From: Basidiobolus meristosporus CBS 931.73 | Taxonomy: Eukaryota; Basidiobolomycota; Basidiobolomycetes; Basidiobolales; Basidiobolaceae | NCBI GenBank assembly: GCA_002104905.1 | Contig: MCFE01000093.1 | Location: 111,282 to 175,281 of the forward strand | Length of the DNA: 64,000 nucleotides | Direction of reading: 5' to 3' | In this document: positions 54,695 through 64,000 of the stretch, in pieces | Layout: each line of letters begins with the position of its first letter | Numbering within the stretch: position 1 is the stretch's first letter | Position numbers and translations under genes: made by a program | The notes under the pieces: generated by a model | The model's input: the letters and a program-made list of their open reading frames with translations, nothing else | Told to the model about the DNA's origin: nothing | Database searches by the model: none

Positions 54695-55307
54695 GCCAAA
54701 GCTTTGGGAATAGAAGGGGCAAAAACTGTCAGTAAATAAGCTTGTTTTGTTGTTCGGTCTAAATAAATCAACCAAATAGTTGTTTATGTTAGGTGCAGAT
54801 TGTTATGAATTCAGATCATTAGTGCCACCAGGAATTTTTGTGTTCGGTAAGCCATACACTTGATTTATTGCCTAATATTAACAACATTCGGCAAAGCCAG
54901 GTAGGAACATTCAATTCGATATGATATGCATGAGCATATTTAGGTATATATTCCTTTACAATCAACGTTAGGAATAATGATGCTCATAAATGTAGATATT
55001 TACCAACTAACAAGGGACATAATTCCTTTAGATGATGATCAGCATCCAGGGTAACAAGAAATAAGTGTATATCATCTTAATGTCATTTCAAAAAAGCCTT
55101 TGACTGGAAAAAATAGGAGTTGTATGGAGCACCATTGCAGCATACACACCTGTTTGCTCTTTCGAGTACTGCTTGATATACTGACTGCCGAGTAAGAGCA
55201 CTCATATCTGGGTTGGCCAATGTGCTAGTTTTTCGAGATATACAGTTACTATTTATTTTCTATAAAGTCGTTTGAAATATCTTGATAGTGAGTAGACCAG
55301 AAGATCC
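54695..55307. other. Transition to subtelomeric DNA
   Basis: This AT-rich spacer between HAUS4 and the thioesterase fragment has no recognisable exon. It marks the end of the conserved gene core. Confidence 0.4.
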
Positions 55308-56237
55308 TCACTGTACACCATGCTCCCTTGTTAAAATCCCTGCCTTGAGGTACTTCTGGAAATATGGAACATAGTGATGGTTCATCAGCGTGTAGTGCGC
55401 ACCAGGCACACCAATGTAGCTGTTGGCCTGTCGGGTGAAGCCATCCCACTTCATGAGCATTCCATCCAGCCAGTCCTCCTTCTTCCCAGCCAGTGGAATG
55501 GCATAGAGCACCGAGACTTGTGCAACAGTCCCGCTGGGTTCGTAGCTGCGACCGCACTTCAGCAGGGACTCGGCGATATCCACCTACTTTTCAAGCTGTG
55601 TGCGGTCGATCTCGAGCTCTTTGATCCGATCAGGCGAGGCCTTGGACCAGATATGATTGATCTGCTCCTCACGAGGCAACGTGTGAAGATATGGGGAGAC
55701 TCGAGTCGCCTCCTCCTTCGTGATGAGGTCCAAGAAGTAGGACAGATTCAGGAAGCCCCCGGTCCAGTCTAGCTCGAGCATCCTAGGCTTGATGTGGGGA
55801 GGGATGTTGACCAGACCGACGAAAGCCATCTTCTCCCCCTGAGCCTCAAGTCGTTTGGCAATCTCGAATGCTACCACCCCGCCGTACGAGTACCCGGCCA
55901 CCGCTTGCGGTCCTTTAGGCTGGGTTTTGCGGATGGCTGCGGTGTATATATCGGCCATCTCCTCCATGGACTCGAAGTACGGATTGTTGTCGAAACCTCG
56001 AGCTCGCAGTGCATAGAATGGTCGTTCATTTGCAAAGTATTTGGCCAGGTTGACAAAGATGAGCACCTCTCCAACCCCAGGGTGGACAAAGAAGATTGGC
56101 ACGCCAGACCCGGTGACCTGCAATGGGACAACTGGGTTATAGCCATGGACGACTCCCTTGTTCAGTATGGAGGTGTCCAAGTGCTCCGCAAGCTGCCGAA
56201 TAGTGGGGTACTGCATGATTCTGATCACCAACCAGTT
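55308..56237 (-). pseudogene. Truncated NRPS/PKS-like carrier-thioesterase fragment
   Basis: From an acceptor at 56238 the frame begins with the last helix of an acyl/peptidyl carrier domain (MQYPTIRQLAEHLDTS). It then runs through a type I thioesterase: PIFFVHPGVGEVLIF, AGYSYGGVVAFEIAKRLE with the catalytic Ser, and GAHYTLM with the catalytic His. An in-frame TAG at 55584-55586 splits it between these two residues. Upstream, only CAAG of the preceding exon remains (56294-56297) before a TTAGGGGGG junction with a LINE, so the adenylation or ketosynthase part is gone. It is a relic of a secondary-metabolite or AMP-ligase-type multidomain enzyme. Confidence 0.8.
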
Positions 56238-56297: not shown

Positions 56298-56773
56298 TTA
56301 GGGGGGAGACAGTCACCAACAGGCGAAGTCCTTATTTCAGTTGAAACAAAGAAGCCAGCGCTACTGTTGTAGCTTTGATACAAGAGTGTGTAGCTGAGGG
56401 GAATTTGTAGGTAAGTGAAGAAGAAGAGATGATAGTTCTTCAGTGCTCAAGACACTGTTGAGTGGGAAGGGGGGTAGCAAGAGAGGTAAGAATGATTTGT
56501 GAACAACATTGATAAGGGGAATGTGATAAGGATTGATACTCATCATAAAGGGAGTGTGCTGCTTCAGATATTGCTGCCAAAGGTCTGTCAAGTACTTCAG
56601 GTAGGCCAGCTTGGGTTTTTCTGACTGCAGAACATAATGAGCAAACTTCTTGACTTCAGGATCTCCAAGTATTGTTCTCCAGCAGGATCCAGGTGTAGTG
56701 TGGTGTGTTCTCTTCCAGGCCTTGATCAGTGGGTTGTTGCAGTGGTGAAGTCTGATCTTATAGGGCAAAAGGG
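56298..56773 (-). mobile_element. LINE copy 1, 3' fragment
   Basis: It starts with TTAGGGGGG then AGACAGTCACC, the 3' end of a LINE lying on the minus strand. It contains the C-terminal part of the RT ORF (56361-56768, ending HTLVSKLQQ). Compared with copies 2 and 3 it lacks about 29 bp, deleted between two GAAGTCT repeats near 56750. It ends at its truncated 5' side in AGGGCAAAAGGG. Confidence 0.9.
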
Positions 56774-57541
56774 TTTAGGGGGGGGGAGACAGTCACCAAC
56801 AGGTGAAATCTTTATTTCAGTTGAAACAAAGAAGCCAGCGCTACTGTTGTAGCTTTGATACAAGAGTGTGTAGCTGAGGGGAATTTGTAGGTAAGTTAAT
56901 AAGAGGTGATGATAGTTCTTCAGTGCTCAAGACACTGTTCAGAGGGAGGGGGGGTAGCAAGAGAGGTAAGAATGACTTGTGAACAACATTAATGAGGGGA
57001 ATGTGATAGGGATTGATATTCATCATAAAGGGAGTGTGCTGCTGCAGATATTGCTGCCAAAGGTCTGTCAAGTACTTCAGGTAGGCCAGCTTGGGTTTAT
57101 CTGACTGCAGAATAAATTGAGCAAACTTCTTGACTTCAGGATCCCCAAGTATAGTTCTCCAGCAGGAGCCAGGTGTAGTGTGGTGTGTTCTCTTCCAGGC
57201 CTTGATCAGTGGGTTGTTGCAGTGATGAAGTCTGAGATATTATCTAGTTCTGAGGTAGAGAAGTCTAATCTTATAGGGCATAAACCCAAAAGCACCAAGA
57301 ATAGCATGTCTGTAGGGGCATTCAGGCAAATGAGGCACCAAGGAGGTAATGCACCATACTGCAAACTTGTCAAGCTTAGTGCAGTCTCTAGAAGTAAGAC
57401 AGAGAAGTGGTAAGCCAAATTCCAGGACAGGGAAGACAAACTGCTTGAGTAGAAGGAAGCAGCTGGAAGCTGAAGTTGTAGGAGGAGTAACAGCCAATAG
57501 CTTGTGGAGTGCCTGCCTTGCCAGGATAATTCTCTTCTTCA
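56774..57541 (-). mobile_element. LINE copy 2, 3' fragment
   Basis: This is the same family, head to tail with copy 1. The junction reads GGGTTTAGGGGGGGGG then AGACAGTCACC. It covers the 3' part of the RT ORF in broken frames (56841-57071 and 57240-57542) and is truncated at CTCTTCTTC (57540), where AT-rich DNA begins. The undamaged copy 3 continues with GGTGTGCTCCAGAG at this point. Confidence 0.9.
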
Positions 57542-57666
57542 AGAGTTGTTTTAAGATAACAAAAAGTTTTCATCAAGAGTTGTTCTAAAATAACAAAAAG
57601 TTTTCATCAAGAATTGTTCTAAGATAACAAAAAGTTTTCATCAAGAATTGTTCTAAGATAACAAAA
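57538..57666. repeat. 34-bp tandem repeat at LINE/AT-island junction
   Basis: About 3.8 units of CATCAAGAnTTGTTCTAA followed by nATAACAAAAAGTTTT occupy 57538-57666, with units starting at 57571, 57605 and 57639. The repeat begins exactly where LINE copy 2 ends. Confidence 0.85.
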
Positions 57667-57826
57667 ATCAGATCAGCATTTATTTTATAAAAGAATATTT
57701 TTTCATCAAAGAGAAAACTTATTTATATTTTTTAGCTTTGTCTAAAATCAAATGTGATACCAAAAATCCCAATTGCATTTTCCACGGTTTTTTATCCTAT
57801 ATTTTTTTTCCATTTTTATATATTGG

Positions 57827-58159
57827 TTATACTTTTTCTAAATTTTTTGGGTTTTCTAAAAATATACCAACAAACTCTTTTAATTCATCATCAGACAAGT
57901 GTTTTATATATTTAACCTTATAACGATTGGTGTCTTGTTCAAAAATTTTACGTTTTTGTTTATATTCTATAGCGTTTAAATCCGGTTCAAACTTTTTGGA
58001 TTTTTGTTCAACTTGTTGTTTATATTCTTTTGGATAACTACACTGCTCAGACAAATATTTCTTCACATAAAAATTAAGATGTTTTACATAATCAGAGCTT
58101 ACCAAAGTAGTTTCTTCGCAACATGATATATTAATTGTTGTAAAAATTTGTATTTCCAC
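57827..58159 (-). pseudogene. AT-rich ORF remnant, 110 codons
   Basis: The frame is open between stops but has no ATG. It is Lys/Tyr/Glu-rich (YKQQVEQKSKKFEPDLNA) and ends in LENPKNLEKV. No family is recognised. The absence of a start suggests a decayed or 5'-broken gene. Confidence 0.4.
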
Positions 58160-58405
58160 CTAAATATTCACCTAACTTAGTCACTTAGATCATCACCTTC
58201 AAATCCTAGAGAATACTGACTAAATTCCTTGTCGGGATTTACTTGGAATATTTTCACCAAAATGCCAGGTACCCAGAATATGAAGATTCTCAAAGTTGTC
58301 CAAACAGCCCCAAACTTTGCACACATGCTCTTGGGACCTTCCTTAACCTATTCTACGTGTTTGTAATGCCAAGACCAGGTAAAAGTATAAATACTACTTT
58401 TACAT

Positions 58406-59071
58406 TCAATAAATCATAAAGTGAAAACCACATAATCTACTTGTTCTCCCAATCACTTCCAATATCTCCAAGACTCTTACAACATTAATATCCCAATTAA
58501 TATTATTTAATATAGATAAATCACAGTTGTTTGAGCAGAAATATCTATCGGTGTGCATACCAAATATAAGTAGTAAATTAATTGCAGCTAATATAAAACC
58601 AAATGTAAGAGTTAATTCATCGGATCTATTAGGTTTATCAACATATAATATATACGTTATTGCTATTATGATTAATATTGCATATTTAGATTCCCCATCA
58701 TACCAACTTGGATCCAACAAAATTTGTATACTTTTTCTGTGTCTAATTTTATGGTTAATTGTCCAACGTATTGCATTTATTAAAATAAAAAATAGACAAA
58801 GGTCTAAGTATGCAATACCAAAAACTTTGACATTAGAATTGTAAAATAGTTCCAAACATTGTATTATCATACATCTAATAGAAAATACAATATATATACG
58901 TCTTAGTTTGGGTATCAAAGAAAATGGATTTATCATTGAATAAAAAAAAGTAGTGTAAAAACAACCAATATAAACGTTATTGTTGATATATATGTAGTTA
59001 TACGTTAAATGTAACTTTTGATGCGCATTTATCAAAAACAACTTTAAATATTTGAGTTGACAATAAAACAT
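58406..59071 (-). CDS. AT-rich island membrane protein
   Basis: This ORF encodes 221 aa from the ATG at 59071. At least four hydrophobic segments are visible, among them AYLDLCLFFILINAI, YAILIIIAITYILYV and FGFILAAINLLLIFGM. Codons are very AT-rich, with Ile, Asn and Tyr abundant. No family is recognised. It has no introns and lies in the same orientation as its neighbours. Confidence 0.5.
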   Translation of the reverse strand: MFYCQLKYLKLFLINAHQKLHLTYNYIYINNNVYIGCFYTTFFYSMINPFSLIPKLRRIYIVFSIRCMIIQCLELFYNSNVKVFGIAYLDLCLFFILINAIRWTINHKIRHRKSIQILLDPSWYDGESKYAILIIIAITYILYVDKPNRSDELTLTFGFILAAINLLLIFGMHTDRYFCSNNCDLSILNNINWDINVVRVLEILEVIGRTSRLCGFHFMIY

Positions 59072-59559
59072 TTTTGTTGTTTTGAAACTTTTTAAAAATA
59101 AGCTTAGAACAACATGTATTACATAAATGGAACTTTGGAATTAAAAACAAGTAGCAACTGCATTTTTTGTTATCTAGAAAACTTTTTGGAAAAATAATTT
59201 TTAAACCATGGTTCTTGTTGTTTGGGGAATTTTTGGTTTAAACATTTTTCAAGCTAAAAAAAAAATATTTTTCAAGCTTAAAGAGTAAATGTTTGTAAAA
59301 CAGATATGCCATAGCTATTGTAGTAACTATAGGACAAACATTGAGCATTGAAAAGTATTTTGCAAGCATAATATTTTTACCGTTCAATAGTTACAAAATA
59401 ATTATGAAATTTTTACAACTAAACTGTTAAATAAAAAAACTCACAAATGTTTCCCCCAAAAAATACGCATAATACCGCAACATTAAAATGTCCAAATTTG
59501 GCAGGGAACGCCCTACAAAAATTTTATTTTATTGGGAATGATATCCACAAAGTTAACCG
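59072..59559. other. AT-rich non-coding stretch
   Basis: About 490 bp of very AT-rich sequence with homopolymer A and T runs and two AAGCTTAAAGAG/CAAGCTAAAA-like short repeats. No ORF of note. Confidence 0.4.
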
Positions 59560-59934
59560 TTATTTACCAAAATAATAGTTTTTTATTGCATTCCATGAGT
59601 ATGGGATTATATTATTTTTTATCAGCAATATTGCCCCAACTGATGTATTATATATATCTACAATATCCGTTACAACTTTATCCAAATGGGCCATGGTTGC
59701 TGATTTAGAATCCATATCATCATAGAATACATTTTTGCCTACTGTTGAACCATCACTAGAGCCACATGTTTCTTCTAGTGTTGATGCATATGCAGGTAAA
59801 ACTATTTCTTCTACAATTGGTTCATGGGTCACATAAATTTTTTCTACAGTCGTTGATTCAACAATAGGATAAGTTTCTTTTGCAAGTTGCGACCCATATA
59901 TTCCTGCTATTGGTGTGCTATATGTTAATACCAT
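59560..59934 (-). CDS. AT-rich island protein, 124 aa
   Basis: From the ATG at 59934 the protein is Thr/Val/Glu-rich and acidic (YPIVESTTVEKIYVTHEPIV), with a C-terminal hydrophobic stretch GAILLIKNNIIPYSW. It begins 18 bp after the stop of the next ORF. No family is recognised. Confidence 0.45.
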   Translation of the reverse strand: MVLTYSTPIAGIYGSQLAKETYPIVESTTVEKIYVTHEPIVEEIVLPAYASTLEETCGSSDGSTVGKNVFYDDMDSKSATMAHLDKVVTDIVDIYNTSVGAILLIKNNIIPYSWNAIKNYYFGK

Positions 59935-59952
59935 TTTCCCAAATATCAAATC

Positions 59953-60306
59953 TTAGGCGACAGAAATATTTTTTTCTGGGTTTTGGTTTTGAAGTGTTGA
60001 AACTATTTCTCCAAGTTTAAGATGGTGGGGAAGAGAAATGGGTTTTTTTAAAGTTGGTTTGTCTGATGAGGATATAGTTTCAGCGCTATTATCAGACAAA
60101 TTAACTTTATGTACATTGTTGTTTTCATCATCCAAAGTAGTTTTTTCTTGCAAAGGTTGATTTAGGATATTAATATAAGATTGCAAATTATTTAATAGGG
60201 ATATTCCAGATTGTAGAATAGATGTACATGCATCATTTGAAATATGATATCCGCAATAGTTTGAATTTGGTTTAGCTTTACGGCCACATTCAAGACCTTT
60301 ATTCAT
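59953..60306 (-). CDS. AT-rich island protein with Cys/His motif, probably 5'-truncated
   Basis: The ORF of 117 aa starts with MNKGLECGRKAKPNSNYCGYH. The spacing C-x10-C-x2-H, with KG before the first Cys, resembles the small zinc-binding motif repeated in many nucleocytoplasmic large DNA virus proteins (Cys...KGxxC...YCxxH). In those, another Cys lies just upstream. Here that part would lie beyond 60306, where the LINE junction TTAGGGGGGG begins. The gene may therefore have been broken by the event that added LINE copy 3, and its ATG may be fortuitous. Confidence 0.45.
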   Translation of the reverse strand: MNKGLECGRKAKPNSNYCGYHISNDACTSILQSGISLLNNLQSYINILNQPLQEKTTLDDENNNVHKVNLSDNSAETISSSDKPTLKKPISLPHHLKLGEIVSTLQNQNPEKNISVA

Positions 60307-62783
60307 TAGGGGGGGAGACAGTCACCAACAGGTGAAATCTTTATTTCAGTTGAAACAAAGAAGCCAGCGCTACTGTTGTAGCTTTGATACAAGAGTGTGT
60401 AGCTGAGGGGAATTTGTAGGTAAGTTAATAAGAAGTGATGATAGTTCTTCAGTGCTCAAGACACTGTTCAGTGGGAAGGGGGGTAGCAAGAGAGGTAAGA
60501 ATGACTTGTGAACAACATTAATGAGGGGAATGTGATAGGGATTGATATTCATCATAAAGGGAGTGTGCTGCTGCAGATATTGCTGCCAAAGGTCTGTCAA
60601 GTACTTCAGGTAGGCCAGCTTGGGTTTTTCTGACTGCAGAATATAGTGTGCAAACTTCTTGACTTCAGGATCTCCAAGTATAGTTCTCCAGCAGGAGCCA
60701 GGTGTTGTGTGGTGTGTTCTCTTCCAGGCCTTAATCAGTGGGTTGTTGCAGTTGTGAAGTCTGAGGTATAATCTGGTTCTAAGGTAGAGAAGTCTGATCT
60801 TATAGGGCATAAACCCAAAAGCACCAAGAATAGCATGTCTGTAGGGGCATTCAGGCAAATGAGGCACCAAGGAGGTAATGCACCATACTGCAAACTTGTC
60901 AAGCTTAGTGCAGTCTCTAGAAGTAAGAGAGAGAAGTGGTAAGCCAAATTCCAGGACAGGGAAGACAAACTGCTTGAGTAGAAGGAGGCAGCTGGGAGCT
61001 GAAGTTGTAGGACGAGTAACAGCCAGTAGCTTGTGGAGTGCCTGTCTTGCCAGGATAATTCTCTTCTTCAGGTGTGCTCCAGAGTCTAGTCCAGTAGGAA
61101 GGAAAGGAAAGCCAAGATATGTAGCAGAAACCAGAGCAGGTAGAGTGGAGTTCTCCAAGTTGATGGGAGAGCCCAAAGGTACTGTCTTTGCAATGGAAAG
61201 CTGGAGATTATTCTTCTGCAGATACTGGTGGATGGTCTGGGAGTCTTGCTGCACATTGGAGGAGGTTATTCTGATGTCATCAGCAAAGAGAGTAACCAGG
61301 CAGTCAGCTGAGAGTCTTGGGAAATCATTCAGGAAGATGGCAAACAGTATAGGACCAAGCACAGAGCCTTGAACCACTCCATTAGGAACTGAGAACACAG
61401 CTGATTGCTCACTTGGGTGCAGAATTCTTGCTTGTGGATCTAGAAACAGAGACCTGACAAGGAGGGTAAGAGAGGTACTGGAGAAGCATTGCAACTTGGG
61501 CCAAAGCAGATTTCTGTCAACTGAATCAAAGGCCTTAGTAATATCAAACAGAACAGAGGGATACTTGCACTGGAGAGAGTGATCTTGGCTAAGTATGACT
61601 GAATATTCCAAGGAGAGGCCAGGAACAAAGCCAAACTATGCAGGATGAAACTTGAGGGAGTCAGAGTAGAGCTCCTGAGCAAGCAGAAGCTCAAACACCT
61701 TTCTGCAGGTGGGCAGCAGAGATATTGGCCTGTAGGAGCTAGGATCCAGGTGCTTTCCTTTACCCATGTACAGTGGCAGAACATTTGCAAAGGACCATTC
61801 CTCAGGAGTAGAAAGCTGAGCTGAGCATTGCTGAAACAGTGGAAGCAGAAGTGCAGACATGGCCTTGGTACTAGTCTTCAGAAGCTCATAGGAGATTGTG
61901 TCCACACCTGGAGCAGTAGAGTTGGGAAGCCTCTTCAGCACATTATGGATTCTCCTTTGATCAAGTGCAAGTGGGATGGGCAGAGTCTTGAAGTCAGGAT
62001 GAAAGCCAGGAGTTGAGTACTGCTTTGTAGAGAAGAAGATGTTAGCCAGTTGTTCTGTTGAAGGTAACTTCCTGGAAGAAGGCCTCATTGCCCTGTAGAG
62101 TCTTGATACTGTTCTTGTTATAGAGTTGGAAGATTGCAGAGGCAAAGAACTCATAATATGATCCCAGAGCTGAGTATGCAGAGTGTGGTGAATTGCCTTG
62201 GAGTGGTGTATTGCTGTCAGGAGGAGTTTCTCTGTTTTTGGGTTAGGGAAACTCAGGTAGCTTTGTTGCAGGGCTGAAACAATGGATTCCCATTTTCTTG
62301 AGGTAACAGCAGTAGACTTGCATGGCAGTGAGAGGGAGGCAGACACCAGAATCAGATGCTTCACAAAGAGCTAGGCATAGTTGAGATCATCTGGCAGAGA
62401 AAGTAGCAAACTGGCAAGCTTCAAGTAGTTCCCAAAGTCTTTCTTCTGATTCTTGGTAGCTTTGTGGGTGAGCACAGTAAGTTTTGGCAGCTTCTTCTTC
62501 ACAACTGGTTGCATAGAAAGGGACCAGGCTGGGTGGTCAGAGGCTCTCAAGGATCCTAGCTCAGCTCCAGAGAATTGCTTAACTTCATTCACAAAGTAGA
62601 GGGCAGCAGCAGAAGGGCAGATCCAGTCAACACATCTTTTCTCAGATTGAGCACCTAGTGCTAGCAGGTGGCTTTCTCTCAGGAAGTTCAGTAGGAATGT
62701 AGACCTTGGCTTCATTCTTGCAGTCAGAGTAGTCTTGTTCTCAGGATGGGGAATGTTGAGATCTCCAAGCAAGATAATAGGTG
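60307..62783 (-). mobile_element. LINE copy 3 with endonuclease-RT ORF2, 5'-truncated
   Basis: This minus-strand non-LTR retrotransposon has its 3' end at 60307 (TTAGGGGGGGAGACAGTCACC). One reading frame from 62781 to 60370 is interrupted by two in-frame TAG codons (62371 and 61636). It encodes the end of an APE-type endonuclease (IILLGDLNIP, VDWICPS, ASDHPAWS). A reverse transcriptase follows (APGVDTISYELLK, YRPISLLPTCRKVFELLL, FDITKAFDSVDR, NGVVQGSVLGPILFAIFLND and the active site LFADDIR) and then a C-terminal domain ending SKLQQ. The 5' part, including ORF1 and most of the endonuclease, is missing. The cut end joins four TTAGGG units directly. Confidence 0.93.
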
Positions 62784-62808
62784 TTAGGGTTAGGGTTAGG
62801 GTTAGGGG
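62784..62808. repeat. Interstitial telomeric repeat between two LINEs
   Basis: Four perfect TTAGGG units plus one G separate the truncated 5' end of LINE copy 3 from the 3' end of the next element (AGGGAAAGTCACC). In the LINE frame the complement is read as TLTLTLTP. Confidence 0.95.
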
Positions 62809-63764
62809 AGGGAAAGTCACCAAGGTAGGTGAAATCTTTATTTGATTTCAGACAAGTCTAACTACAAATAAAGAAGCCAGCTGGGAATAGAAGATTCCCA
62901 AAGTAAACACTAAGTTGAATATGAATAAATCTAAGCTAAAGTTAAGGCAGTATCCCAAAGTACACTGGAGTTCAGGTTCATGGGGGAGTGAAGTAGATAA
63001 GCTTGAGAGATATAATAATCTTTAAGGAAGTGGGTAACAGCAGGTGAGGGGGAGTTTTTGATAAGTGAAGTAAATCTTGAGAGCAGAGATTCCTCTAATG
63101 AGAAGGTCTTGTAAACTGGAGAATCAGGAAACTCTTTAAAGGCATGATCAGTAGGTTCCCAGTAAAACTGGTCAGAGACATTTTGAGAGAATTCTTTAGC
63201 AATACTTTTGTCAAGTACTACCTCCAGAGTGTGATGGTTGATAAATCTCATGTTAACAATCTTGGATAAGTTGTAACCTTGTTGCTTGAGATACATCCTA
63301 TGCTCAGATATAGGAATAAACTCCACATTGGCAAAGTAGCAGACAGCCCAGTCAGTAGCAGGAGGTAGATCAGAAGTGGCAGGAAACTTTCTTTTGGTCT
63401 TTGGAGGAGCAGCAAGATTTCTTGAGGAAGCAGGAGCAGGATTTTTTACAGCTTCAGAGTAGGAAGAGTGAGCAGGAGCAGATGACTCTTGGGGAGTCAT
63501 GTTGACAGGAACAGTTGGCACAGGGACAATAGATTCTTGCAGAACAGAAAAGGCAGAAAACAGCTTTTGAACTTGCTTCTTGAGTAAAGCATTTTCAGCT
63601 TCAACAAGTGCAAGCCTTTCCTCAAGGAAGGAAATCTGAAGGGAATGGAGTGAAGGCATCAGAAATAAGAAGAAGAGGGTAAGATGGGGTGGGTGGGAGG
63701 GAAAATTAGCAGGGAGAAGAGAAGGAAGGAGCAAAAATTCCAGAAGTCAGAATTTATAGATGGG
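62809..63764 (-). mobile_element. ORF1-only LINE-like element at the telomere
   Basis: Its 3' end (GGGAAAGTCACCAAGGTAGG, then TGAAATCTTTATTTGATTTC) is clearly related to that of the other LINEs but is not the same family. It contains one ORF (62931-63659 from the ATG, open to 63734), an ORF1-like protein. The protein has a coiled coil (EERLALVEAENALLKKQVQK), a Pro/Ser-rich linker, and a conserved-looking domain (YLKQQGYNLSKIVNMRFINH). No endonuclease or RT follows: the stop is only about 120 bp from the 3' end. The 5' end meets the terminal telomere. It is either a non-autonomous family or an internally deleted LINE. Confidence 0.8.
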
Positions 63765-64000
63765 TTAGGGTTAGGGTTAGGGTTAGGGTTAGGGTTAGGG
63801 TTAGGGTTAGGGTTAGGGTTAGGGTTAGGGTTAGGGTTAGGGTTAGGGTTAGGGTTAGGGTTAGGGTTAGGGTTAGGGTTAGGGTTAGGGTTAGGGTTAG
63901 GGTTAGGGTTAGGGTTAGGGTTAGGGTTAGGGTTAGGGTTAGGGTTAGGGTTAGGGTTAGGGTTAGGGTTAGGGTTAGGGTTAGGGTTAGGGTTAGGGTT
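63765..64000. repeat. Terminal telomere, TTAGGG x about 39
   Basis: Perfect TTAGGG repeats run to the end of the window, G-rich strand 5'->3' outward, as expected for the right end of a chromosome. This fixes the orientation: everything to the left is subtelomeric. Confidence 0.98.

Follow-up and report, generated by a model that had tools for sequence, protein, structure and literature searches.

A genome-wide LINE-type array at the chromosome ends of Basidiobolus meristosporus and its possible origin by end-primed addition

Layout of the terminal array

The window, a 64,000-nucleotide stretch of Basidiobolus meristosporus DNA, is the terminal part of a 175,281-bp contig and ends in an array of four element copies, all on the minus strand. 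Copy 1 (56298..56770) has its 3' end TTAGGGGGG at 56298 and retains ~450 bp of the 3' part of a LINE, family A; it is strongly truncated at the 5' end and is 94.9% identical to A 1-452. It forms a 480-bp tandem with copy 2 (56784..57541; 96.3% identical to A 1-758), which is truncated 5' at A position 758, and the junction of the two was read from the sequence as GGGTTTAGGGGGGGGG (56771..56786). The array is then interrupted by a mostly AT-rich block of ~2.8 kb (57542..60305; GC 28.6-28.9% over 58001-60000) that opens with a 34-bp tandem (57535-57667), contains a solo LTR at 58136-58484 flanked on each side by TTAAT, joins copy 2 proximally without TTAGGG and ends distally at TTAGGGGGGG. Half of this block was found again at C312. 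Copy 3 (60306..62785) extends from the TTAGGGGGGG junction through a 3' UTR and a reverse transcriptase (RT) domain (PF00078, 4.2e-17) into a partial APE-like endonuclease, where it is truncated 5' at A position 2473; it has two in-frame stops and is divided into adjacent frames at 60370-61635, 61636-62370 and 62371-62847.

Copies 3 and 4 are separated by (TTAGGG)4 on the plus strand (62784..62807), and three bases, GTT, fit the tract and copy 3 alike. Copy 4 (W4, 62802..63763) is a ~1-kb element with the 3' end common to the set. Its frame of 271 aa (62931-63746) is a homologue of the family A ORF1 (36% over 163 aa, 4e-21); no Pfam match was obtained for the frame and no RT was found in copy 4 within the window. 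More W4 copies were seen at other junctions. The terminal telomere, (TTAGGG)n on the plus strand (63764..64000; TRF, 39.8 copies), reaches the end of the contig. An Rfam scan over the array gave no match, and TTAGGGTTAGGG gave 41 matches compared to 0 expected by chance.

The initial annotation had proposed a head-to-tail array of four LINE-type copies, and it placed the junctions correctly to within one base (actual starts 56298, 56774, 60306 and 62802). The single orientation of the copies was confirmed, as was the claim that TTAGGG directly borders the 5' ends of the last two elements: copy 3 meets (TTAGGG)4 at ~62785, and copy 4 meets the terminal array at 63763. Copies 1-3 belong to one LINE family, however, copy 4 being an RT-less relative with an ORF1 homologue, and the head-to-tail order is broken by the ~2.8 kb of other DNA.

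Element families and their common 3' end

The elements are probably LINEs of the APE type, an assignment made at that level from their predicted proteins. The full ORF2 RT matched PF00078 at 2.6e-25, and its best solved match was LINE-1 ORF2p (5.9e-13). The endonuclease region matched PF14529 at E=0.00035, but the 20.9 bits fall under the cut-off of 27.4, and family B gave no endonuclease match in the Pfam search. In an alignment of the region, GDxN and D171 were invariant and SDH was retained in the A/B relatives; at the position that is Glu in the rest of the alignment, A, B, P0001 and P0003 have Asp. In endonucleases of the APE type these residues (GDxN, D171, SDH and Glu) are catalytic. 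Neither A nor B has in its ORF2 the restriction-enzyme-like motif CX2CX6HX3C ... RHD, a looser form of it or any RHD/RHN, and no such Pfam match was found.

A single 3' end is common to LINE A, LINE B, copy 4 and a SINE-like element of ~530 bp. It consists of AATAAA, a small hairpin and a C-run, which with the junction reads CCCCCC(UAA) on the element strand; poly(A) was not seen at the junctions read. About 50 bp of the 3' end, including the hairpin, is common to the LINE and the SINE-like element. Counted from the TTAGGG junction, the head of the SINE-like element has TAGCCTTGTGG at 15 and GGTTCAAATCC at 58, which may correspond to the pol III A and B box consensus; ARAGORN found no tRNA in this head and Rfam gave no match. 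Its 5' end is followed by exactly one TTAGGG in 15/21 cases. The family A elements appear to have been active recently, since 40 long copies (of 791 BLAST candidates, 40 scored) are 99-100% identical to copy 3.

Junctions, orientation and telomere tracts across the genome

About 950 family A 3' ends were found, 855 forward and 93 reverse. We read 125 junctions at loci fetched for family A matches or telomere ends, with family B and the SINE-like element entering mainly as neighbours; stretches fetched later, such as that of the C428 copy described below, lie outside the 125. TTA precedes the G-run in 105 of them and in 88 of the 108 distinct upstream contexts. Exact six-G ends genome-wide are preceded by TTA in 263/314 cases compared to ~1 in 64 by chance, which rules out random matches and extends the TTAGGG-type 3' junctions proposed for the window to the whole genome. 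At least three exact telomere units precede only 6/314 six-G ends. The TTA may derive from the chromosome, from telomerase or from the element RNA.

The raw strand ratio of 855:93 was discarded as evidence: it mostly mirrors how the contigs are oriented, because telomere arrays likewise lie 108:3. Copies were judged instead by where they lie relative to the ends of a contig. Among the matches listed on contigs longer than 30 kb, all 76 plus-strand junctions, on 32 contigs, were no more than 18.2 kb from the right end. Of the five minus-strand junctions on such contigs, those on C1257 and C80 were no farther than 2.9 kb from the left end and three were on C726. Minus-strand copies were located at most 2.3 kb from the left end on C291, C361, C433 and C448 (124-161 kb), and the right end of C291 also bears plus-strand copies. 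The first 100 listed places included nine reverse ones, five on contigs longer than 100 kb (C80, C291, C361, C433 and C448) and the others on C142 (16 kb), C284, C397 and C423. Minus-strand copies also occur on C27 and C217, contigs of 14-20 kb that are too short to orient, and reverse telomere arrays were seen at C35:17741 and C595:4444. There were two exceptions: C726 has minus-strand copies 57-61 kb from its left end, opposite a plus-strand copy, and on C428 one copy lies 29 kb in from the right end, with the join ...CTCA/GGGGGG, lacking TTA. A control LTR from the array of the window gave 23 plus and 16 minus places among 39 rows (best 40 of 4031 candidates scored), some of them well away from the ends of C846 and C713; contig extents were known for few rows.

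Bar these two exceptions, the copies among the matches listed are restricted to chromosome ends and to one orientation. The proposal that 3' ends face the centromere held for the large contigs checked but not for C726, and TTA stands at 105/125 junctions but not at the C428 copy. No internal population of LINEs on both strands came up among the first 100 places for each pattern and the 40 of 791 BLAST candidates scored, and rare internal copies may exist. On their distal side the copies border telomere repeat or another element, which leaves no empty site against which to compare them for target-site duplications.

The telomere tracts at the 3' ends are short. On the centromeric side, 118/125 junctions have 0-2 units and 111/125 have 1-2, while the 20 terminal telomeres read measure 156-252 bp, or about 26-42 TTAGGG repeats. 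The distal-most junction found has 1-7 units on 11/11 fully covered telomere-ended contigs (P ~1e-7 under uniform insertion along the telomere), which rules out uniform insertion along the full telomere; these junctions were located by exact motif, by which a degenerate, more distal element could escape, and the gapped contigs C22 and C62 were excluded. The capping of truncated elements by telomere arrays was borne out, as a family element adjoins 14/20 telomeres, in the same orientation in 14/14. The host is probably telomerase-positive, judging from a TERT RBD present as two pieces (1.6e-8 and 9.7e-7; 0/14 control genomes).

The four element types adjoin each other in many combinations with varied truncation points. 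In 72/125 junctions the neighbour matched one of five single reference copies, and 51 of these rows were truncated; at least 3 bases were shared with TTAGGG in 21/51, against a null of 6.2%, and the mean number of shared bases was reached in 0/20,000 resamples. Two of the 51 (6 and 10 shared bases) were due to a tract-holding reference, and their exclusion gives 19/49. A version with many references (29/61) was set aside as inflated, the longest match having been chosen. In 7/51 truncated neighbours only G was added past a native TAG, TTA, GG or AGGG end; an eroded telomere, the primer suggested in the initial annotation, is not a requirement. Telomerase may have added GGG before priming at these seven joins, which have no added TTA.

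End priming, its alternatives and related systems

The array at chromosome ends is a confirmed, genome-wide observation. To explain it, we propose that RNA from a telomere-restricted set (LINE A, LINE B, the ~1-kb ORF1-only element and the ~530-bp SINE-like element, all with a single 3' end) would be reverse transcribed straight from the 3'-OH of the chromosome end, the G-strand. The RNA would end in CCCCCCUAA, and the priming end would bear 0-2 TTAGGG units, or just 2-4 TTAGGG-matching bases if it were broken and non-telomeric. The cDNA would frequently stop early; its free end would then be capped by telomerase (about 26-42 TTAGGG repeats) or take the next element, and repeated rounds in that order would build a head-to-tail array. 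As a whole, we consider such end-primed addition of telomere-restricted retroelements in a telomerase-positive fungus a somewhat probable explanation. It draws on the junction sequences, the orientation where checked, the short tracts, the microhomology, the shared 3' ends, the capping and the TERT domain. The block-copy 2 join without TTAGGG and the exceptions on C726 and C428 count against it. The idea of a dated stack holds in part: the array is no pure clock, because the AT-rich block with its solo LTR lies inside it, and truncation, healing or recombination can act too.

The retained APE-like region (GDxN, D, SDH) also counts against end priming, since with it the elements could insert as TRAS1 does, by nicking the G-strand inside TTAGGG; insertions near the telomere base alone would survive, and long interstitial tracts would break and heal. 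Conservation of the region extends over A, B and those relatives that cover it, inward-facing 3' ends imply G-strand priming, and the short tracts could be survivors, as in Magnaporthe, where long interstitial tracts of MoTeR arrays are described as fragile and prone to break and stable ones as having at most (TTAGGG)2 (PMC7367193). We nevertheless find this account unlikely, as the distal-most junctions, expected to be the youngest, are at 1-7 units already in 11/11 contigs, no complete nickable repeat is left in 7/51 truncated neighbours, and Asp replaces the usual Glu in A, B, P0001 and P0003. A variant compatible with end priming, in which broken ends are first healed by telomerase with one or two TTAGGG and then prime RNA ending in the C-run only, is possible, if on the doubtful side. 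The TERT domain and the terminal arrays that top truncated elements agree with it, and de novo telomere addition by 1-4 nt seeds is reported for 19/24 events (PMC7367193); yet it needs stubs of 1-2 units in 111/125 junctions though terminal arrays have 26-42, and the TAG/GGGGG joins without added TTA are explained no less well by pairing through CUA of the RNA.

Spread chiefly by break-induced replication or telomere-telomere recombination among existing arrays, rather than by new additions, seems to us quite improbable. MoTeR arrays are reported to expand in this way (PMC7367193), and some contexts do repeat, half of the interrupting block recurring at C312, but the 125 junctions present 108 distinct upstream contexts and four element types in many pairings with different truncation points. 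Returning to end priming, an extended form of it, which we regard as speculative and rather unlikely, is that element RNAs ending in (C)n-UAA(CCC) are a portable telomerase-like template. Once they had annealed over 1-4 bases with a broken 3' end of any kind, the LINE machinery would write one TTAGGG plus a retroelement, so that the LINEs and their SINE-like partner would heal ends alongside telomerase as a second system, every copy leaving a telomerase seed. This form predicts the SINE-like 5' ends followed by one TTAGGG (15/21) and the TAG/GGGGG joins without added TTA.

Several known systems have related features. Drosophila HeT-A, TART and TAHRE are added to chromosome ends in head-to-tail arrays with their 3' ends centromere-ward; Bombyx TRAS and SART have an APE-type endonuclease; and MoTeR of Magnaporthe has an RT-less companion, as here. 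At dysfunctional telomeres, endonuclease-independent L1 reverse transcription is primed from the telomeric 3' end (mentioned in PMC4700185), but that is a side-reaction in repair-deficient cells, whereas in Basidiobolus such priming would be a regular habit. Athena and Coprina are endonuclease-deficient Penelope-like elements found on telomere ends with short telomere-repeat junctions; the Basidiobolus elements appear to differ in an RT whose best solved match is L1 ORF2p and in the APE-like region before it. UnaL2-type LINE/SINE pairs have common 3' tails, and the Basidiobolus pair differs in being telomere-associated. No telomeric SINE was seen among the literature titles listed, 15 of 33.

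HeT-A, TART and TAHRE are described as retrotransposing into chromosome ends in a host without telomerase and telomere repeats (PMC7265360), in contrast to Basidiobolus with its TERT domain and TTAGGG arrays of 156-252 bp. We do not claim sequence membership in HeT-A/TART; the best reading is that the element set resembles HeT-A in action, yet forms a lineage of its own that has kept an APE-like endonuclease region. TRAS and SART are akin to the Basidiobolus elements in their two ORFs, their telomere-repeat specificity and a host with telomere repeats; they insert into the repeats, SART needing at least 3 and having poly(A), and full-length copies are reported at telomeres (PMC7265360, PMC4700185). 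The short tracts, truncated copies and C-run/UAA 3' end of Basidiobolus are unlike these, and TRAS/SART membership was rejected on the 0-2 centromeric units in 118/125 junctions and the C-run in place of poly(A). MoTeR and FoTeR (Fusarium) share with the present elements a fungal host with telomere repeats, chromosome-end arrays, TTAGGG/TAACCC 3' junctions and many truncated copies, but are described as carrying a restriction-enzyme-like endonuclease (PMC12857005, PMC7367193), the motif of which is absent in Basidiobolus, where an APE-like region is present. FoTeR 3' tracts are given as typically 3-7 repeats (PMC12857005), unlike the 0-2 units seen here, and a SINE-like partner is a further difference.

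If end priming is true, Basidiobolus would combine telomerase with the regular lengthening of its chromosome ends by an APE-type LINE, an RT-less relative and a SINE-like element. Its genome, which offers about 950 family A 3' ends to read, would by itself allow a test of whether LINEs can use a chromosome end as primer in the manner of telomerase, and of how a system like that of Drosophila could emerge in a host that still has telomerase. The arrays also offer a way to order the break-and-heal events of subtelomeres.

Elements of the terminal array

The window corresponds to bases 111282-175281 of contig C1235 (175,281 bp, from an 89-Mb assembly of 1311 contigs), whose right end is (TTAGGG)39.8. 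Copies 1, 2 and 3 of the array (56298-56770, 56784-57541 and 60306-62785, minus strand) are 94.9%, 96.3% and 99.0% identical, respectively, to a single family A LINE copy on C191, which carries a 523-aa ORF1 and a 911-aa ORF2. Family A ORF2 matched PF00078 (2.6e-25) and gave weak APE-endonuclease matches; human L1 ORF2p was its top solved relative, and five database proteins showed 48-80% identity. The same arrays contain a second LINE, family B, with a 949-aa ORF2 47% identical to that of family A. Copy 4 (62802-63763), of the element type W4, lacks a reverse transcriptase, and its sole long frame, without a Pfam match, shows homology with the C-terminal part of ORF1 (36%, 163 aa, 4e-21). An element of ~530 bp, also in these arrays, carries at its 5' end motifs that resemble the consensus A and B boxes; neither ARAGORN nor Rfam recognised a tRNA in it, and we call it SINE-like because of its size, its boxes and the 3' end that it shares with the other elements. 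No earlier report of these elements was found among the open-access papers listed, judged by title and abstract opening.

That common 3' end, ATAAAGATTTCACC-loop-GGTGAC on the element strand, occurs in family A (copies 2 and 3), copy 4, family B and the SINE-like element. After GGTGAC, family A terminates in TGTCTCCCCCC and the other three in TTTCC(C)TCCCC. Folding of six single copies predicted a hairpin in each, with five or six pairs around the loop; it was longer in family A. In the full-length family A copy, (TTAGGG)2 lies within the apparent 5' UTR at C191:160380-160391. Beyond this tract is a sequence, ending in GACTAATTTAAAGAGG, that was found again ahead of other junctions; family A therefore probably has its true 5' end ~180 bp farther out.

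In the APE-like endonuclease region, the A/B clade shares the GDxN, D and SDH positions with the other aligned proteins, but has Asp (IDV) where those have Glu, mostly as ET; two proteins, P0004 and P0005, do not extend over the Asp/Glu site. The Glu is taken to be a catalytic residue, and the A/B region is a putative endonuclease. ORF2 of both families lacks the restriction-enzyme-like endonuclease motif found in MoTeR/FoTeR.

Position and sequence of the junctions

We collected 125 junctions from the fetched loci (86 family A, 24 SINE-like and 15 family B), and TTA preceded the G-run in 105 of them, or in 88 of their 108 distinct 20-nt contexts. The G-run was 4-12 long in family A (6 or 7 in 64/86) and 4 in 13/15 family B junctions. 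The tracts held no TAG unit in 7 junctions, one in 78, two in 33, three in 3, four in 1, five in 1 and seven in 2. Over the whole genome, family A 3' ends numbered 855 forward and 93 reverse when as many as two mismatches were allowed, and among the 314 3' ends with exactly six G, 263 were preceded by TTA and 6 had at least three exact units. The 3' tracts of FoTeR typically hold 3-7 units (PMC12857005), and SART1 requires at least three repeats and has poly(A) (PMC7265360). No poly(A) was seen at the junctions listed for the elements described here.

On contigs longer than 30 kb, all 76 plus-strand junctions read (one on C726) were at most 18.2 kb from the right end, with a median distance of 4.2 kb. 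Of the five minus-strand junctions, three were on C726 and the other two no more than 2.9 kb from the left end. C291, C361, C433 and C448 (124-161 kb) had minus-strand copies no farther than 2.3 kb from the left end, C291 also having plus-strand copies at its right end, and C428 had one plus-strand copy 29 kb from the end. The minus-strand copies of C726, 57-61 kb from the left end, stand 3' to 3' against a plus-strand copy; C726:54000-62000 holds two facing family A arrays beside what resembles, by eye, a copia-type element. The facing arrays may represent an inversion, a fusion or an assembly chimera.

Priming, insertion and the order of the array

The proximal neighbour could be assigned, by match to one of five reference copies, at 72 of the 125 junctions: 51 neighbours were truncated and 21, all but one SINE-like (20), ended at or near the reference 5' end. 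Truncated neighbours had a mean of 1.94 bases in common with the TTAGGG tract (null 0.76), at least three in 21/51 (null 6.2%), and in 7/51 only G had been added after a native TAG, TTA, GG or AGGG end. Where a SINE-like 5' end lay no more than 70 bases from the junction, 15 of 21 junctions had exactly one TTAGGG-type unit. The data from both kinds of junction indicate that a stretch of telomere repeats is not required for the inferred element priming. Telomere healing in Magnaporthe uses the same 1-4 nt seeds (19/24 events; PMC7367193), and so microhomology alone does not distinguish telomerase from element RNA.

Uniform insertion along a full telomere was rejected: a nick anywhere in a 26-42-unit telomere would mostly leave a long centromeric tract, whereas the tracts found were short. 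The distal-most junctions, which should be the youngest, had 1-7 units on 11/11 fully read telomere-ended contigs (P ~1e-7 under uniform insertion). The short tracts may be a survivor effect, since long interstitial tracts break in Magnaporthe, stable ones being (TTAGGG)2 or shorter (PMC7367193).

The initial annotation proposed a dated stack of end-healing events, and the order of copies 1 and 2, the interrupting block, copies 3 and 4 and the telomere fits outward growth. The AT-rich block (57542-60305), between copies 2 and 3, departs from that proposal: it meets copy 2 without TTAGGG, contains a solo LTR and recurs in half on C312 (59164-60290 at C312:9770-10896, 97%), and end capture or recombination therefore also shaped the array. 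A 34-bp tandem repeat (3.9 copies, 57535-57667) lies at the join with copy 2. The solo LTR (TGTTGTAA...TTACAACA, 58136-58484) has TTAAT on either side, and its many genome copies lie on both strands (23 plus and 16 minus among the 39 matches listed). One frame in the block has a CGRKAKPNSNYCGYH stretch resembling, by eye, the short zinc motifs found in large DNA viruses. Directly beneath the array, 55249-56237 contains thioesterase-like frames (by eye) that may be the terminal part of an NRPS/PKS gene.

Telomere arrays and telomerase

We read 20 telomere arrays spanning 156-252 bp, counted from the first four perfect units. The 19 forward arrays reach the end of the stretch read, which is the contig end or at most 20 bases short of it, and the single reverse array begins at the left contig end. 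A family element lay within 40 bases upstream in 14/20 (7 A, 3 W4, 3 SINE-like and 1 B), oriented as in the window in 14/14; the other flanks were the LTR seen in the interrupting block (1/20) or had no match (5/20). By eye, two unmatched flanks, L089 and L100, resemble a degenerate SINE-like end and a copy-4 5' region. Genome-wide, 111 starts of arrays of at least five TTAGGG repeats (those preceded by G excluded) were counted, 108 of them forward, in the assembly of 1311 contigs; these may represent many chromosome ends or variant tips, together with an odd bias in contig orientation. Two reverse-strand arrays, at C35:17741 and C595:4444, lie at a distance from the left contig end and are possible interstitial telomeres.

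A Telomerase_RBD match was found on C880 as two pieces together (1.6e-8 and 9.7e-7), the second with one stop that is perhaps an intron. This match and the terminal TTAGGG arrays suggest that the element system adds to telomerase without replacing it.
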